A DNA stretch of 23,212 nucleotides, taken from positions 1-23,212 of the IMG/VR virus record IMGVR_UViG_3300035487_000955; one strand, written 5' to 3'. The translations under genes were made by a program, and so were the position numbers. Each line of letters starts with the position of its first letter. Position 1 is the first letter of the stretch. The stretch comes from a virus. Of this stretch, positions 1,423 through 23,212 are shown in pieces. Below the pieces are notes generated by a model. That model ran no database searches. It saw only the letters and a list, made by a program, of their open reading frames with translations, and had not been told where the DNA came from.

Positions 1423-2745
1423 ATGTCAACAGACAAAAAACAAAAAAAACCAAGAATCGGAGAATTAACTAAGAAATTAGTACAAGACACTCCGGTAAAA
1501 GAAGCTGAAGTTTTAGAAACAGAAGCAAAAATTGATGAAACTCCAAATGATGGCCGTGAATGGTACAATGAAGCTGGAGAATTTGATTGGGACTCGTTCG
1601 AAGCAACATGTCCAACAAGAACAAGAAAACCAAATCCACATATTAAAACACGTAAGGGTGAAAGAGTTTTTTCTAGAGAATCATATGCACAAGAATTATA
1701 TGATATAATGGACGACCATTACGAATCTAAAGGAGAATCTCTTAGATTTAAGATAAGTGTTGGTGAAACTATTGAAGGTACTGTAATTGGAGTTGACACT
1801 GCATGGTGTTCAATCGACATCGGATACAGAGAATCAGTGTATGTTGATATGTCTAAAGAATCTGAAATTTCTAAGACAAAGCTAGTACCAGGATCTCTAA
1901 TATCTGTACAGATTACAGGAGATCAAAAATCAAATCAAAGAGGATTTATATTAGGATCAGTTGAAGCTGGAATTAAGGCTGCTACGACCAGAGAAATATT
2001 ATCGACTATTGAAGAAGGAACAACAGCATATGTTGGTACTGTAGTTAGTATGATTCAAAATGGTGGATACATTGTTAGTATCCAAGGAATAGAATGTTTC
2101 ATGCCAGGTTCATTGGCTGGAATTAACAAATTAGTAGATTTTGAATCTATTATTGATACTGATTTATATGTAGTTCCGATGAGCTATTCTCCAGAAAAAG
2201 GAACAATTGTAGTTTCACATAGAAAATACCTACAAGCTATGATTCCTACTAGAATTGAAGAAATTTCTAATGATCTTAGTGTAGTAAGAACTGGTAATGT
2301 AACTGGATCCGCTAAGTATGGTGTATTTGTTGAGTTCGATGGTTGTTTAACTGGAATGATACACATCAATGACTTAGATGTTGAAACTCTAAAGAAGCAT
2401 AAATCTAGAGAAATAAATCCAGGAGATTCAATTGACTTTAAAGTAAAAGAAGTAATCAGCAACACTAAGATTACATTAACCCAAGTTGAACAGCAAGCAA
2501 TCGTAGACCCTTGGAAGTTAATTGCTGAAAAATATACATCTTTCCCAGTTGAAGTGTCTGGTGTTGTTAAATCAACTAAAGATTATGGTGTATTTTTAGA
2601 TGTCGGTGAAGGAGTTGTTGGATTATTACATGTCTCTGAATTACCAGATGATTTTGATAAAGAAACAATCAAAAAGAACGACACGATAACAGTACAAATT
2701 ACAAGAATTGAAGTTGAAACAAGAAAAGTTTTCTTAAAACTGTAA
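1423..2745 (+). CDS. Phage-encoded ribosomal protein S1 homologue with four S1 (OB-fold) domains
   Basis: The 440-aa protein starts with a charged, probably disordered tail (residues 1-45) and a segment with GEFDWDSFE (52-60). Four S1/OB domains follow at about 109-180, 197-267, 285-355 and 373-440. Domain 2 carries IECFMPGS and IVVSHRK, and domains 3 and 4 carry the classic KYGVFVEF...GMIHINDL and DYGVFLDV...GLLHVSEL patterns. Bacterial S1 usually has up to six such domains: 1-2 hold it on the 30S subunit and the later ones bind RNA. This protein resembles domains 1-4 and lacks the last two, so it could dock on host ribosomes with altered mRNA preference; that role is inferred. The ATG is chosen because it follows an A-rich leader without Shine-Dalgarno sequence and the tail has normal composition. 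An intrinsic terminator follows directly, so it may be expressed separately from the baseplate genes. Confidence 0.88.
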   Translation: MSTDKKQKKPRIGELTKKLVQDTPVKEAEVLETEAKIDETPNDGREWYNEAGEFDWDSFEATCPTRTRKPNPHIKTRKGERVFSRESYAQELYDIMDDHYESKGESLRFKISVGETIEGTVIGVDTAWCSIDIGYRESVYVDMSKESEISKTKLVPGSLISVQITGDQKSNQRGFILGSVEAGIKAATTREILSTIEEGTTAYVGTVVSMIQNGGYIVSIQGIECFMPGSLAGINKLVDFESIIDTDLYVVPMSYSPEKGTIVVSHRKYLQAMIPTRIEEISNDLSVVRTGNVTGSAKYGVFVEFDGCLTGMIHINDLDVETLKKHKSREINPGDSIDFKVKEVISNTKITLTQVEQQAIVDPWKLIAEKYTSFPVEVSGVVKSTKDYGVFLDVGEGVVGLLHVSELPDDFDKETIKKNDTITVQITRIEVETRKVFLKL

Positions 2746-2866: not shown

Positions 2867-4159
2867 ATGAATAATCTAAACGACTCGAAAATACTTGGAA
2901 ACTCCTTAGTTGGTGTTAAATTTGAATTTTATTCAAATAAGGATATTGATGCTACCGCAAATGAGCTAGCTGCGACACTTGGTAAGAAAATAAAAGTAGA
3001 AGATGCAAATAGCATAGAATTTGCCGCGACACAAGATGTGTTTAAAATAAAACTAGGAATGTCTGCTGGTTCTAAATTAATAGAGCTTACTACTGGTAAT
3101 ATGTCGTATCATACATCTAGATTAATGGTTATTAATGTATGTTCTTGGATCGAAGAGAACGGACACACTGATGAAATGACTTCAATTTATTTAAATTTAG
3201 GATTCGATAATAAAAAAGTAGATAATAAATATAGGATATCAAAAATGAATGTTCTTAAGTTTGTTCTTGATTTTGATGAGGATCAAGTCTTTAAGTTTTT
3301 TCCAAATAGAAAAAAATCAGTGTATTCTAAATCTATTAAATTTGTAGTACCTAAAGATGATTTTTCATTTTTTGATGGTAAACATATTAATCAACAGAAT
3401 TTTATATACCCTCAAACAAAAAACTATGGAGTAAATTTCGAAACAAGATTAAATAATTATTTAGAATTTAAGTATATTGGAGGAGAGGACTGGCAAAAAA
3501 AGACCACAACGATACTTCATTTAATTGATAGGTTTTTAATTCAATTATGGAATTCTACAGATTCTACTAGTTTTAACCAATTAAATGCTATTGAGTTAAA
3601 CAAAATCATGTCTAATAATCAAAAAAACATTGATGCTAGAAGAGACTGGACTACTATATCAAAAAACTTTAAAGATTCTAGTTTTACTGTTGATTTAAGT
3701 GATGATCCAAAAATAGTTTCTCTTTACTGGAACAATGTAAAGGAAAGAGTTTCAAAGTTATTTACCCATGGCGGCTTTTCTAAAGGACATATTAATTATG
3801 ATTCTGATTCTGGAAAAGTGCAAGTACAGAATGGTAGACTAGAGTACTGCGTAGAATTAGAGGGTTATGAATTTGTAAATTGTTTTTTAAGAGGACATCT
3901 TAAAAATTGCGATATGTTTTCATGTCAAGTTGAAGGATCTGATATTGATTCATGTAATTTTTATGCAGGATCTCAAATAAATCATTCAAAGCTTAAAAGT
4001 TCATATATCCACCATAGTGTAGTTGTTGACGATTGTCTTGTTTATGGAAAAGGAGCATTTAAAGGAACTATGAATAGAGGAATATTTAGAGAAGGTGGAT
4101 ATTCTAAAAAAGCTACAGTTTTTAATCAAACTGAAATAATATTATCAACACCAATATAA
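2867..4159 (+). CDS. Divergent amidoligase-like protein with a Cys-rich repeat-like C-terminal domain
   Basis: The 430-aa protein shows the motif order of the amidoligase (COOH-NH2 ligase, glutamine-synthetase-like fold) family. It has an N-terminal GVKFEF (16-21; usual form GVEhEh), IELTTGNM (72-79; usual ELVTGPh), SIYLNLGF (106-113; usual hHVNh) and YLEFKYIGG (198-206; usual hEFRhhGG). Family members join a carboxylate to an amine using ATP. Three normally conserved positions differ here: K18 for Glu, Y108 for His and K202 for Arg. Activity is therefore uncertain, although E20 and E73 remain. Residues about 330-405 form irregular repeats with Cys at 339, 348, 353, 363 and 390, suggesting a small beta-helix-like or pentapeptide-like domain. 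The gene is followed after 15 bases by virion genes, so the product may act on, or be part of, the particle. The family assignment rests on motif reading only. Confidence 0.55.
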   Translation: MNNLNDSKILGNSLVGVKFEFYSNKDIDATANELAATLGKKIKVEDANSIEFAATQDVFKIKLGMSAGSKLIELTTGNMSYHTSRLMVINVCSWIEENGHTDEMTSIYLNLGFDNKKVDNKYRISKMNVLKFVLDFDEDQVFKFFPNRKKSVYSKSIKFVVPKDDFSFFDGKHINQQNFIYPQTKNYGVNFETRLNNYLEFKYIGGEDWQKKTTTILHLIDRFLIQLWNSTDSTSFNQLNAIELNKIMSNNQKNIDARRDWTTISKNFKDSSFTVDLSDDPKIVSLYWNNVKERVSKLFTHGGFSKGHINYDSDSGKVQVQNGRLEYCVELEGYEFVNCFLRGHLKNCDMFSCQVEGSDIDSCNFYAGSQINHSKLKSSYIHHSVVVDDCLVYGKGAFKGTMNRGIFREGGYSKKATVFNQTEIILSTPI

Positions 4160-4174
4160 AAATATAATTTAAAA

Positions 4175-5002
4175 ATGAGTAATATTTACGTAGGAAATGC
4201 AGGTAACGTGCAAAATCCCCAATTCGAAACTGATTGTTTTAACATTTTTGTTAATGAACTTGCTGATGAAATAACAGGATCGTGCATGATTCCAATGAAT
4301 CTTCCTAAAAAAGAGGTACAGAACATTGTTAAGCGTGCTAAAAAATGGTTTTATAAAAATTATGAATACTCTGTAAAAGAGAATTTTGTGGTTTTACCAA
4401 TAGAATTGTTTAAAACAGAGCATTTTAAAAAATCAAGAAGTTTCACCTTTGAACCGCCAACTGATGGTAGCGGAGGAGAGATATTCTCAATATATGGATG
4501 TGCTCCTATGGGAGCCAATTGGGGTGGATCAATGGATATTAACTTTACACAAGGTGATTTTGCTATTGAAAGAATGATGCTTGGTGGAACATATGGTGGT
4601 TCTAAAACAGGAGCCGCGGCTGAAAATTTACAATATTACGTAATTAATGAAAGTTTCTTTGATTTAGCGCGACAAATAATACATAACCCAATATCGTTTC
4701 AATATAGTCAATTAACACATGAGCTGAGGTTTACTGGAGAAACTCCAAATAAAAATGTTGTTCTTGAAGTTTATGAAACTATTCCAGATTGCGCATTATA
4801 CGGAGATGAGGTATTCTTCAGGTATTGTGCAGCTAAAATTAAAGTTTCTTTAGGGCAAAAACTTGGAATCTTTGGATTCGTTTTACCTGGAAATATAACG
4901 GTAAATGCAGATCTTATACAGGGTATGGGAGAAAGTGAACTTGAAGCTGTCATCGAAGAGATTAAAACAGACGAAGGAACTGATTGGATGATGCACTCTT
5001 AA
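4175..5002 (+). CDS. Putative phage structural protein (possible neck/adaptor or baseplate component)
   Basis: This 275-aa protein has an N-terminal helix-rich part (about 15-60) followed by a Gly-rich central part (about 95-150). Its C-terminal segment contains FFRYCAAKIKVSLGQKLG, then LPGNITVNADLI and an acidic tail (EAVIEEIKTDEGTDW). A helix with 'K..LG' followed by 'LPGGhTh...hh..G' resembles a segment I associate with structural proteins of large phages, but I cannot name the family. It lies 19 bases before the gp25-like gene in the same direction, so assembly into the tail or neck is likely. The ATG follows an A-rich leader with no Shine-Dalgarno sequence. Confidence 0.5.
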   Translation: MSNIYVGNAGNVQNPQFETDCFNIFVNELADEITGSCMIPMNLPKKEVQNIVKRAKKWFYKNYEYSVKENFVVLPIELFKTEHFKKSRSFTFEPPTDGSGGEIFSIYGCAPMGANWGGSMDINFTQGDFAIERMMLGGTYGGSKTGAAAENLQYYVINESFFDLARQIIHNPISFQYSQLTHELRFTGETPNKNVVLEVYETIPDCALYGDEVFFRYCAAKIKVSLGQKLGIFGFVLPGNITVNADLIQGMGESELEAVIEEIKTDEGTDWMMHS

Positions 5003-5021
5003 AAATTGAATATATAACAAT

Positions 5022-5375
5022 ATGGAATTTTACATAAAGAACATGGAGGATCCTGGGTTTGATGCCTCTTTTATGCAATCTGACGAGGAAATAGGAATGC
5101 TATTGACTCAAATAGAAACATGCATTTTTACAAAAAAAGGAGATGTGTTAGGAGACCCTGCGTTTGGTGCAAATTTAGAAGACTACGTGTATTCATTTAT
5201 GTTTAATGATTCAATGTTAAAGAATGTTATAACCGAACAATTTAATAGATACATTCCTTTAGCAAGAAAATATAACACGCAAGTTGAGGTTGAATTTTTA
5301 GGCCAAAATGAAAGAAACGTAGTGTTTGTAGATATAACGATAGATAATACATACAAAGTAGAAATCTATATATAA
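5022..5375 (+). CDS. gp25: Baseplate wedge protein, gp25-like (GPW/gp25 family)
   Basis: At 117 aa the protein is close to the usual size of T4 gp25 and phage P2 gpW-type wedge proteins. The core signature is visible at about 33-63: an amphipathic helix, then CIFTKKGDVLGDPAFGANLEDYV, shown here as FTKKGDVLGDP and FGANLEDYV, matching the family pattern of a Gly-rich turn and 'FG..L...hF'. In contractile tails gp25 connects the baseplate wedge to the tail sheath and helps trigger sheath assembly. It is directly followed by the gp6-like gene, the usual partner in the wedge core. The C-terminal half (VEVEFLGQ...VFVDITI) fits the family's beta-strands. Confidence 0.9.
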   Translation: MEFYIKNMEDPGFDASFMQSDEEIGMLLTQIETCIFTKKGDVLGDPAFGANLEDYVYSFMFNDSMLKNVITEQFNRYIPLARKYNTQVEVEFLGQNERNVVFVDITIDNTYKVEIYI

Positions 5376-5392
5376 AATAGAATAAATAACAA

Positions 5393-7213
5393 ATGGCAGA
5401 ATTTAAATTTTTATCAACGGCTAGAATAAGAGCCAGTGAAATGATCGATGACACTCAATCATACATTGCTAGGGTTTATGGCCGAGCTGGCGAATTATTT
5501 ACGTCAGCATCTCCATTTTCTCAAATATTGAGCGTTCTTTCTCAAATAACTGAAATGATATTCTATTATGTTGAAGATTCTACAATCGAGCAGAATATTT
5601 TAACAGCACAAAATCCAGAATCAATATACGGTTTATCAAGGTTGGCCGGTCATGACTCATTTAGAGGTACCTCCTCTATTGGAGAAATCAAATTAAGATT
5701 AAATACTTCTGCTGGAGACGAAATTGCTGGAGATGCTCTAAATATACCAGCGAATACAGTTATTAAGTCTGAAAAGAACGGCTTAGAATATGTTTTAAAA
5801 ACAAATCAAGATCAATTTAGAATTGAAAAAAGTAATTCAGGCTATATAAATATCCCAGTAGTACAGGGTAAAATAGAAAAACAAGATGTTACGGGTACTG
5901 GAGATAGTTTACAATCATTCAATATTATTATTAAAGGAAACACGGATCATCATTCAGTTAGGATTCTAGTTAATAGTGAACTATGGAGTAAATATGATTC
6001 ACTATACGACATGAAAGTAGGAACTAAAGGATATTTAGTTAAGACTGGAATTTCTGGTGGTTTAGATATTTATTTTGGTAATGGATCATTTGGTGATATT
6101 CCAAATGAAGGGGCTACTATTGAAATAGAATACATAATTACAGATGGTGCCGCTGGTAATTTAAGTGGTTCGAAAGATTTAAGATTTAAATTTGAAACAG
6201 AAGGATCTGATTCTGTTGGAGAGACATATGATTTAAACGAAATGCTAGAAGCAAGCTTCACTATTGCTCCAAAAATGGGATCAGATCCTGAGAGTACTGA
6301 GCTTACTAAATTATTAGCACCACTACAATCACATTCTTTTGTTCTAGCAACACCGAATAATTACGAAGCATTTTTATCTAAGTATGGTATGTTTTCATAT
6401 CTAGATGCTTATAATACAACAGACGACGGTTATATTGACGATGACAATGTGATATATTTATTTATGTTACCAGACACTAAAAGAAAACTAACAAAGAATA
6501 ATGACTACTTTAATATTCCTATAGATGAGTTCTTCTTTTCTGAAGATGAAAAGAATGGAATTTTACAAACTTTAGAAAATAGTGGAAGACAAATGGTAAC
6601 TACTGAGGTAAAAATTGTAGAACCTAAAGTACAGTATTTTAGAATGGATGTTAAGGTAAGATATTTTGAAGGTTTTAATAAACCAGCTCTTTATTCTGAA
6701 ATTAGAGCTAAAATATCTGATTACTTAATTAATATAACAAGAAGAGATCGCTTACCAAAATCAGACATTATTGCTCTTTTAGAAGGCATTGAAGGTATCG
6801 ATTCAGTAAACGTTAAATTTACATCAGAAAAAGAAGAAACAGCAAGAAGACTTGGTTATTATGTTACTGAAACAGTAAATGTTACACCATCTACGCCGGT
6901 TCTTGAAGGTATCGGTAACGGAAAACAAAAATATGTTTTCTTTAAAAGAACAGTATCTAAGAATCAGGTTAATTTTGAACCGAATGCAGCTCTTCCAGAA
7001 AATGTAATAAATTTAGATTCATTTGGAGATATACTTCTTGAAAAAGAAGAAGTTGCACTATTTAGAGGAGATTGGATGGATAGAGAAAGCGCAATAATAT
7101 TAGATGACGCTAAAATGGGAGAACATGCAGCTCTTTCAATATACTTTGATGAACCTGCTGTTAAAAACACTATTTTCTCTAAAATACAGGCACAAAATAG
7201 AAAAGCACTATAA
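5393..7213 (+). CDS. gp6: Baseplate wedge protein, gp6/baseplate J-like
   Basis: The 606-aa protein has an N-terminal helical part (1-90) and a baseplate-J core. The most telling piece is at about 222-258: GGLDIYFGNGSFGDIPNEG, followed by IEIEYIITDGAAGNL, the J/gp6 signature. Residues about 412-475 hold the C-terminal alpha/beta part (VRYFEGFNKPALYSEIRAKI ... LPKSDIIALLEGIEGI), as in gpJ homologues. A tail of about 130 residues extends beyond the minimal J fold and contains ALFRGDWMDRES. In contractile systems this protein dimerises and forms the ring of the baseplate with gp25 and gp7/gpI partners. The gene begins 17 bases after gp25, and its TAA overlaps the next ATG by one base (TAATG), implying coupled translation. 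Confidence 0.9.
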   Translation: MAEFKFLSTARIRASEMIDDTQSYIARVYGRAGELFTSASPFSQILSVLSQITEMIFYYVEDSTIEQNILTAQNPESIYGLSRLAGHDSFRGTSSIGEIKLRLNTSAGDEIAGDALNIPANTVIKSEKNGLEYVLKTNQDQFRIEKSNSGYINIPVVQGKIEKQDVTGTGDSLQSFNIIIKGNTDHHSVRILVNSELWSKYDSLYDMKVGTKGYLVKTGISGGLDIYFGNGSFGDIPNEGATIEIEYIITDGAAGNLSGSKDLRFKFETEGSDSVGETYDLNEMLEASFTIAPKMGSDPESTELTKLLAPLQSHSFVLATPNNYEAFLSKYGMFSYLDAYNTTDDGYIDDDNVIYLFMLPDTKRKLTKNNDYFNIPIDEFFFSEDEKNGILQTLENSGRQMVTTEVKIVEPKVQYFRMDVKVRYFEGFNKPALYSEIRAKISDYLINITRRDRLPKSDIIALLEGIEGIDSVNVKFTSEKEETARRLGYYVTETVNVTPSTPVLEGIGNGKQKYVFFKRTVSKNQVNFEPNAALPENVINLDSFGDILLEKEEVALFRGDWMDRESAIILDDAKMGEHAALSIYFDEPAVKNTIFSKIQAQNRKAL

Positions 7214-21469: not shown

Positions 21470-23212
21470 ATGGCAATCAATATTAAAGAAATATTTAAGA
21501 GTGATCTAGATCCAAACAGTAATAGCTGGTGGTCTCAAGATAAGGTTGATAAGATTAATAATAATTTTAAACAACTTTCATCAGGAGGGATGACAGGGCC
21601 AATGGGTTCTCAAGGTTCGTTTGGTTTAAGTGGTTTGTTTGGGAGTCAAGGTGCGCAAGGATCAAAAGGAACTTTAGGTAATCAAGGTAATCAAGGTTCT
21701 ATCGGATATTCAACATGGATTGGTGTTGAAGGAACGCTAACCGGATCTATTCATATATTTCCCGAAAAACAAAATATAGAGTATACAACAACATCAATAA
21801 TAGTAGGGAATTCTGTTCCTTCAGCATCTGCAATACAGCCTGTTCACTATCTTTCTCCTTTAAGTTCTACTTTAAAAATACACGCAGGTCAATGGAGCCA
21901 TCCAGGTAGTATTGAATCTATAGTTAATTTAAAACTAACAACATACACGAATGACAGATATGGTGTTGAAACTAACATTTTAAAAGATTCACAACATAGA
22001 ATTTCATATGATAGTGTTAATGCAAATGACATATATGAAGAGGGTAGGTTGAGAAATGGAGGATCTGGATTCACAAGAAGAATTAATCTAGGACCAAATG
22101 ATACATATTCTATTAGAACACACAGTAGCGGTAACGCATTCGATTCTATATTAATATCTGGTGCTGGTACTACTTTTAAAAATAATATAAAGATTAACAA
22201 TTTTGCATTTATTGATGGAGATCTATATATACCGAATATTGCTGGTGTTGATAAAGTACTAATATCGACTAATGCTATAGGAACCGTTAAATGGGTTGAT
22301 AAACATCAGGCCTTTCCAGGATATAAAGACGGTATGATTATATCAATACCTGATTGGGCTTTTAATAGTACTAATTTTGATTTACAAATACAGTATCAAC
22401 AAAACCCTTTAACTCAAGAACCTATCAGATTTACATATGGTAGAGGAATAGTAGGAGGAGAATATGAAGGATGGTATCTATGTAACGGTAGAGAATGGAA
22501 CACTAATGCTGGCATTAATGAAACATTGGTACCAAACATGCATTATACTGAGTTAATAATTGATTCCAATGGACAGCAAGTTAATGTAAATCAAACAAAT
22601 GTATCTTCTATAATGGGAGGTCATGATATTGAAATGAGCGCTACATATATCGGTGGAAATAAATATGATATAGAATACAATACACCATTCCATGGTAATA
22701 ACGATGATGCTAGTGTTGGAATAAAACAAAATATTGGAGGTACTCATACTCATTACGTAAACAAGATGATATACCTTGTTAAATTGCCATATAACAATTT
22801 AGAATGGGAAGAATCTACGGCTTCTGCACCGTCTCTTCTGCAAATTCAATTACAGTATGGCACTACTTCAACTGCTTCGTGTAATTCAACATCATCTAAT
22901 ATGTACAGGTGGGATGCGCCTTCGGGTATTAACACAAGCACGGCATGGTGTAGTTTTACTGGATATAAGCTATATCAATTAACTACACTGTCATTTGCGC
23001 CTACTGGGTGGTATAAATTCAATAATCAATATACAGTATGTTCAAGATATTGGAATGCAGCTACAGGATCTTTTTCAACATCAGTAACATGTCCTACTTG
23101 GAATAGTATTACGCTTAGTGAGGGTTCAAGAATCTCGTTGTTAAACAATTTAGCGTTTCCCGTTCCAAACAGTGTTATCGCAGAAATGAATTCTACTTCA
23201 TTTTCAACAGCA
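21470..23212 (+). CDS. Fibre/receptor-binding protein candidate with collagen-like stalk and tail-collar-like domain, 3'-truncated
   Basis: The frame runs from ATG 21470 to the last base of the window without a stop (581 codons). The N-terminal module (NIKEIF...VDKINNNFKQL, 4-36) resembles that of the 189-aa protein at 10253. Thirteen Gly-X-Y triplets follow at residues 40-78, forming a predicted collagen-like stalk. A tail-collar-like domain lies at about 330-445: GWYLCNGREW (334-343), then LVPNM, and GGTHTHYVNKMIYLVKLP, in which His426 and His428 form the HxH pattern that binds metal in some T4-type fibres. After residue 450 comes a Cys-containing module (SLLQIQLQYGTTSTASCNST and later TVCSRYW, VTCPTW), like repeat modules in some Bacteroidota surface proteins. 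Host recognition is the likely role; the receptor is unknown. Confidence 0.75.
   Translation, partial: MAINIKEIFKSDLDPNSNSWWSQDKVDKINNNFKQLSSGGMTGPMGSQGSFGLSGLFGSQGAQGSKGTLGNQGNQGSIGYSTWIGVEGTLTGSIHIFPEKQNIEYTTTSIIVGNSVPSASAIQPVHYLSPLSSTLKIHAGQWSHPGSIESIVNLKLTTYTNDRYGVETNILKDSQHRISYDSVNANDIYEEGRLRNGGSGFTRRINLGPNDTYSIRTHSSGNAFDSILISGAGTTFKNNIKINNFAFIDGDLYIPNIAGVDKVLISTNAIGTVKWVDKHQAFPGYKDGMIISIPDWAFNSTNFDLQIQYQQNPLTQEPIRFTYGRGIVGGEYEGWYLCNGREWNTNAGINETLVPNMHYTELIIDSNGQQVNVNQTNVSSIMGGHDIEMSATYIGGNKYDIEYNTPFHGNNDDASVGIKQNIGGTHTHYVNKMIYLVKLPYNNLEWEESTASAPSLLQIQLQYGTTSTASCNSTSSNMYRWDAPSGINTSTAWCSFTGYKLYQLTTLSFAPTGWYKFNNQYTVCSRYWNAATGSFSTSVTCPTWNSITLSEGSRISLLNNLAFPVPNSVIAEMNSTSFSTA
21587..21703 (+). 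repeat. Collagen-like Gly-X-Y coding stretch (13 triplets)
   Basis: Codons 40-78 of the right-edge gene encode uninterrupted Gly-X-Y triplets such as GSQ, GAQ, GSK and GNQ. Two GNQ triplets are encoded by a perfect tandem 9-bp unit, ggtaatcaa, at 21677-21685 and 21686-21694. Gln and Ser are common and only one Pro is present, which is usual for phage collagen-like stalks that cannot use hydroxyproline. Confidence 0.88.

Follow-up and report, generated by a model that had tools for sequence, protein, structure and literature searches.

A four-domain bS1-like protein is a core gene of a phage group and may act on Bacteroidia ribosomes

Results

The DNA analysed here, from a large virus that probably infects Bacteroidia, is a stretch of 23,212 nucleotides (IMG/VR record IMGVR_UViG_3300035487_000955, positions 1 to 23,212; hereafter the window). 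By sequence comparison, one of its genes belongs to a real bS1-like family that is a fixed core component of the window's phage group. Its product probably helps viral messages to be translated, because the parts that serve docking and mRNA binding are kept and the gene occupies the same place in hundreds of viruses.

A colinear D1-D4 form of bS1

The gene is a single ORF with an ATG start at positions 1423-2745 (plus strand, as are all window features given by coordinates below up to position 7213), encoding a 440-aa protein to which we assigned four OB/S1 domains by homology, an AlphaFold2 model and Foldseek. In a phmmer search against the PDB, the protein matched E. coli bS1 (E = 7.5e-42), residues 111-438 aligning with E. 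coli residues 18-344, colinear with D1-D4 and without rearrangement, and a profile built from 21 relatives matched bS1 at E = 1.2e-55. The Pfam S1 model PF00575 gave E = 5.7e-24 but by itself passed just two stretches; a generic S1 model would therefore yield fewer than four domains, and D1 and D2 are visible through the bS1 alignment instead. AlphaFold2 predicted four OB barrels, with a short helix (residues 56-61) and a second helix (residues 89-103) preceding OB1, at a mean pLDDT of 73 and a pTM of 0.46, the low pTM plausibly reflecting free packing of the domains. The top Foldseek matches of this model were bS1 chains in 30S mRNA-delivery complexes (E = 2e-24). Together, the phmmer, profile and Foldseek matches rule out a chance domain resemblance.

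D5 and D6 are absent. In 95 distinct relatives the C-terminus lies 0-3 residues past the end of the window protein, so the loss characterises the family and does not reflect gene damage. The reading in the preliminary description, four S1 domains corresponding to D1-D4 with D5-D6 missing, was thus borne out by the HMM searches, the predicted structure and the common stop after D4. Four-domain bS1 proteins are known in other bacteria. Against the curated rpsA equivalog the phage S1 scored 129 bits, short of the cut-off of 577 bits, which was likewise reached by 0 of 60 Bacteroidia bS1s, and PHROGs held no S1 family naming the window protein.

The N-terminal module and OB1

The protein begins with a variable tail (residues 1-44, positions 1423-1554; mean family identity 31%) that was modelled at low confidence, with pLDDT below 50 at residues 1-42. 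An F-x-W motif, GEFDWDSFEA (residues 52-61, positions 1576-1605), is common to Bacteroidia bS1, and its F54 and W56 are invariant in all 95 phage S1s. Such a motif precedes OB1 in 38 of 49 bS1s of a Bacteroidia sample, the class of the Paludibacter genome L145, versus 0 of 30 from neighbouring classes. These 30 are bS1s of the same phylum whose scores exceed the family cut-off, which no member of the Bacteroidia sample does. We infer that the motif is an anchor of bS1. It is followed by a phage-specific insert (residues 62-83, positions 1606-1671) that does not occur in host bS1 and carries a basic RKPNPHIK stretch and a conserved cysteine, C63, kept in 86 of 95 phage S1s. Next comes the predicted docking helix region (residues 86-103, positions 1678-1731), in which Y88, A89 and Q90 are kept in 93, 95 and 88 of the 95 proteins; the Y88-A89-Q90 helix lies where the uS2-binding helix of E. 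coli does, in an uncertain register relative to F5 and F9.

In E. coli bS1, three elements fix OB1 to uS2: an aromatic helix at the N-terminus (F5 and F9, with Q7 and E10), K43 in the zinc pocket, and F79 (PMC10123108). OB1 of the phage protein spans residues 113-180 (positions 1759-1962), and its R136 aligns with K43. This position, which enters the uS2 pocket, is R or K in 95 of 95 phage S1s and K in 23 of 23 Bacteroidia bS1s. Equivalents of E. coli F79 and K117 are not kept in the phage family according to the alignment, and identity between phage and host bS1 amounts to 20% in OB1 and 20-33% per domain. The preliminary description held that the ribosome-docking half was retained; a loss of the 30S contact residues, which would have contradicted it, was not seen, although the alignment at F5 and F9 is not confident. 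The K43 position, the strong constraint and the Bacteroidia-specific N-terminal motif strengthen the docking reading, in which binding to the 30S subunit is a prediction.

In the Lak phages L066 and L253, the N-terminal F-x-W/YAQELYD module of S1 is closely kept. Their S1 has 369 aa, with an OB1 devoid of the K43-type residue and with OB4 missing; reading TAG as Q gave the same end, which rules out a recoded TAG as the cause of the shortening.

The mRNA-binding domains

OB2 (residues 201-270, positions 2023-2232) is the most conserved domain of the phage S1 (71.5%), with Y216, F226 and the FMPGS stretch invariant in the alignment of 95 sequences. E. coli OB2 presents K117, F120 and F130 to mRNA (PMC10123108); the F120 position is Y in 95 of 95 phage S1s, and F130 and PGS are invariant. 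In OB3 (residues 287-355, positions 2281-2487) the RNA-face residues F302, H314 and K349 are kept, and in OB4 (residues 375-440, positions 2545-2742) Y388, F391 and H403 are kept as well. All of these are invariant among the 95 proteins, K349 corresponding to E. coli R254, except H314, which is found in 90. The earlier claim that the RNA-binding half persists is supported by these near-invariant positions. E. coli rpsA lacking D5-D6 is viable and D1-D3 bind the 30S subunit fully (PMC3858243), so the phage form matches a minimum that still works, and its truncation need not impair it.

A fixed position next to the baseplate genes

Upstream of the S1 gene, positions 1-1362 hold the 3' part of a tail-region gene that encodes 722 aa in the contig of the close relative L002, where further tail genes lie on the upstream side, one of them gp5/VgrG-type hub-like by eye. 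Downstream, positions 2867-4159 carry a conserved gene with no function assigned, which directly follows S1 in the relatives, and positions 4175-7213 carry head-tail adaptor-like, gp25-like and gp6-like baseplate wedge genes, named from PHROG matches and synteny. The same baseplate-module genes directly follow S1 in the IMG/VR relatives, and S1 was present at 55 of 55 gp6-like loci whose upstream sequence extends 5.4 kb or more. A profile scan found relatives of the window S1 encoded in 505 IMG/VR stretches. Recent gene pick-up and bacterial contamination are ruled out by the baseplate synteny and by the separate clade described below.

An intrinsic-terminator-like hairpin follows the S1 gene (positions 2771-2796) and is identical in L002 and L047; it occurs in some other relatives but not in all, ruling out an S1-specific terminator as a family trait. 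At the far end of the window, positions 21470-23212 contain an ORF that resembles tail-fibre genes and includes a collagen-type repeat (Pfam Collagen, 3e-5).

Phylogeny of phage and cellular S1

We compared host and phage S1s in a tree of 66 sequences based on the D1-D4 columns, which is unrooted and has long branches and narrow cellular sampling. A branch supported at 100/100 separates all phage S1s (the window clade, Lak phages and phages of 462-735 kb) from those of Bacteroidia, other classes of the Bacteroidota phylum, the short paralogue and E. coli, which sets the phage copies apart from the sampled cellular S1s. The phage S1 does not group with Bacteroidia bS1 in the best tree, and a tree uniting the two was not rejected (AU p = 0.133); descent from Bacteroidia is therefore neither supported nor rejected. 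The short paralogue is a second S1-like protein of about 480-560 aa (L183-L191), found in some Bacteroidota-phylum genomes and forming its own clade. Descent of the phage S1 from this paralogue was not supported by the 66-sequence tree.

Missing Shine-Dalgarno sequences and the host class

All 12 complete starts in the window lack a Shine-Dalgarno (SD) sequence of the GGAG/GAGG type. Among 167 ORFs of relatives, GGAG occurred 0 times and GAGG once, and SD matches of at least 4 nt were no commoner than in shuffled sequences (36 versus 46). Bacteroidia ribosomes hide the anti-SD, and Bacteroidia genes lack SD sequences (PMC8710568, PMC9976891). Since hosts of this class lack SD sequences as well, their absence from the phage is no evidence for a role of the phage S1. 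The absence described earlier thus stood, at the 12 window starts and over the 167 ORFs, and was discarded as a sign of S1 function because it is confounded by host class.

Three observations lead us to infer that the host belongs to the Bacteroidia: the F-x-W motif, the relatives among the Lak phages of Prevotella, and the A-rich leaders without SD. At the 167 ORF starts in the relatives, the leaders are rich in A, which peaks at -13/-14 and -3; at -6, T is as frequent as A, unlike the A-6 of F. johnsoniae. In F. johnsoniae, bS1 boosts initiation on one SD-less mRNA (PMC9976891).

A phage bS21 often accompanies S1

A search with PF01165 detected bS21, a neighbour of bS1 on the 30S subunit, in 12 of 50 S1-bearing contigs, and in 11 of the 16 that extend at least 28.5 kb upstream of S1; these counts, like those that follow, are not independent events. 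The five long-upstream contigs with no detectable bS21 fall into two lineages (L003/L005/L011 and L061/L063). Wherever its position was mapped (12 of 12 cases), bS21 lies 15-29 kb upstream of S1 on the same strand. It was also found in 24 of 40 further long contigs and in 4 of 5 distinct 462-735 kb phage genomes tested, and in an annotated phage collection the nearest bS21 relatives are nearly all in the same huge phages (5 of 6 records). As L002, whose S1 is 91% identical to that of the window, encodes bS21, the window's own phage probably does so too, in a part of the genome outside the window. In E. coli, bS21 clamps OB1 to 16S rRNA (PMC10123108).

In the 735 kb phage LR756501 (L256), bS21 at 542936-543088 is preceded by a strong SD (aaaggaggataa-ATG), like Flavobacteriales rpsU, which suggests that an autoregulatory control may have come along with the gene. 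The other phage bS21 genes that we checked, 11 in number, have no strong SD. At most loci, a conserved small ORF (54-73 aa; L257-L267, e.g. MEEKTAKELIKQLTRIADALE) lies about 1.2 kb upstream of bS21. On the reverse strand near 56800 of contig G178 (L433), bS21 is flanked by genes that by eye are DnaJ-like, PhoH-like and RNase HII-like.

Discussion

We consider it reasonably likely, from the sequence features above, that the protein is a phage bS1 analogue fitted to Bacteroidia ribosomes, which would dock on the 30S subunit and aid phage translation. It would presumably be made late, together with the products of the baseplate and tail genes. The F-x-W module, the docking helix and OB1 would anchor it to uS2, where mRNA leaves the subunit, presumably displacing host bS1 from the 30S subunit. 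OB2-OB4 would bind single-stranded mRNA leaders, recruiting or unfolding them as bS1 does, and would help to place start codons without SD pairing. In relatives with bS21, both phage proteins would jointly remodel the 30S platform, and the remodelled subunit would keep the abundant phage mRNAs translated, perhaps in preference to others. A bolder form, in which S1 and bS21 are a matched pair that rebuilds the SD-blind exit platform into a phage-specific initiation site, with F-x-W as a class-specific anchor, is possible but doubtful.

Alternatively, the protein might work off the ribosome as an RNA-binding protein that protects, unfolds or delivers late mRNAs or acts in transcription or RNA decay, its N-terminal module binding another partner. 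The RNA-face residues of OB3 and OB4 are indeed the most rigidly kept, the Lak S1 retains the N-terminal module without the basic D1 residue and without D4, host S1 also acts away from the ribosome in phages T4 and Qbeta, and Al-Shayeb et al. 2020 leave the site of action as "on or off the ribosome" (PMC7162821). We nevertheless regard this explanation as unlikely, given that the window's family shows little or no variation at the K43 equivalent and in the FMPGS of OB2, and that it retains an N-terminal motif specific to bS1 of the host class.

The location of the gene among baseplate genes led us to consider a virion or baseplate protein, either an S1-derived OB chain in the tail or a protein packaged and injected. 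The S1 gene does lie inside the baseplate module in all relatives that have the module, and adjoins tail proteins in the 634-642 kb phages, but such a protein has no need of invariant RNA-binding residues, the S1 genes of the 735 kb and Lak phages have no tail neighbours, and both the predicted structure and the Foldseek search point to bS1 on the 30S subunit, which makes this improbable. A dominant-negative shut-off, in which the phage S1 displaces host bS1 and, without D5-D6, blocks translation of host mRNA, would fit the kept docking residues, the absence of D5-D6 and the 30S binding of truncated S1 forms (PMC3858243), but is likewise very unlikely because E. coli S1 without D5-D6 supports growth, so that truncation alone would not block translation, and the RNA-binding residues of OB3-OB4 are kept.

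The preferred reading, a bS1 analogue acting on the ribosome, has a precedent: Al-Shayeb et al. 2020 proposed hijacking by phage rpS1 and noted rare SD sequences, so the takeover idea, including its link to missing SD, is already published (PMC7162821). The S1s of the 462-735 kb and Lak phages fall in one clade with the window S1. The possible huge-phage rpS1 of that study was described with up to six S1 domains in a few genomes and was unconfirmed there as a true rpS1, whereas the window family has D1-D4, more than 500 IMG/VR stretches, F-x-W, a fixed baseplate site and frequent bS21. Within the literature searched, the apparent additions are the core-gene status of one D1-D4 family in this phage group, the host-class-specific F-x-W motif, the S1/bS21 arrangement, and a constraint on docking and RNA residues that holds across the family.

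Bacteroidia bS1 (rpsA, F. johnsoniae type) has in common with the phage S1 the F-x-W motif, the docking-helix position, OB1-OB4, the K43-type residue and FxPGS, but has six OB domains in about 580-740 aa, whereas the phage protein has four and a basic insert after F-x-W. The jumbo cyanophage PhiMa05 likewise encodes a bS1 homologue, alongside five further ribosomal proteins; this homologue, set beside the window S1 here by description only, may derive from a Vampirovibrio-like host (PMC13157829). The bS21 of Bacteroidetes phages (PMC9723584) is a different protein of the same 30S neighbourhood that is also thought to act late; its gene neighbours are terminase and capsid genes there and dnaJ-, phoH- and rnhB-like genes here, and we found no mention of bS1 or rpS1 in that paper.

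The same host confounder may underlie the correlation reported earlier between phage rpS1 and rare SD sequences (PMC7162821), so that this link may be a host effect. There is so far only a partial explanation of how Bacteroidia ribosomes choose their start codons in the absence of SD pairing. A compact, independently evolving phage bS1 flags, through its invariant positions, the parts of bS1 that matter, and with the phage S1 and bS21 together it can be tested directly whether ribosomes are re-equipped by phages.
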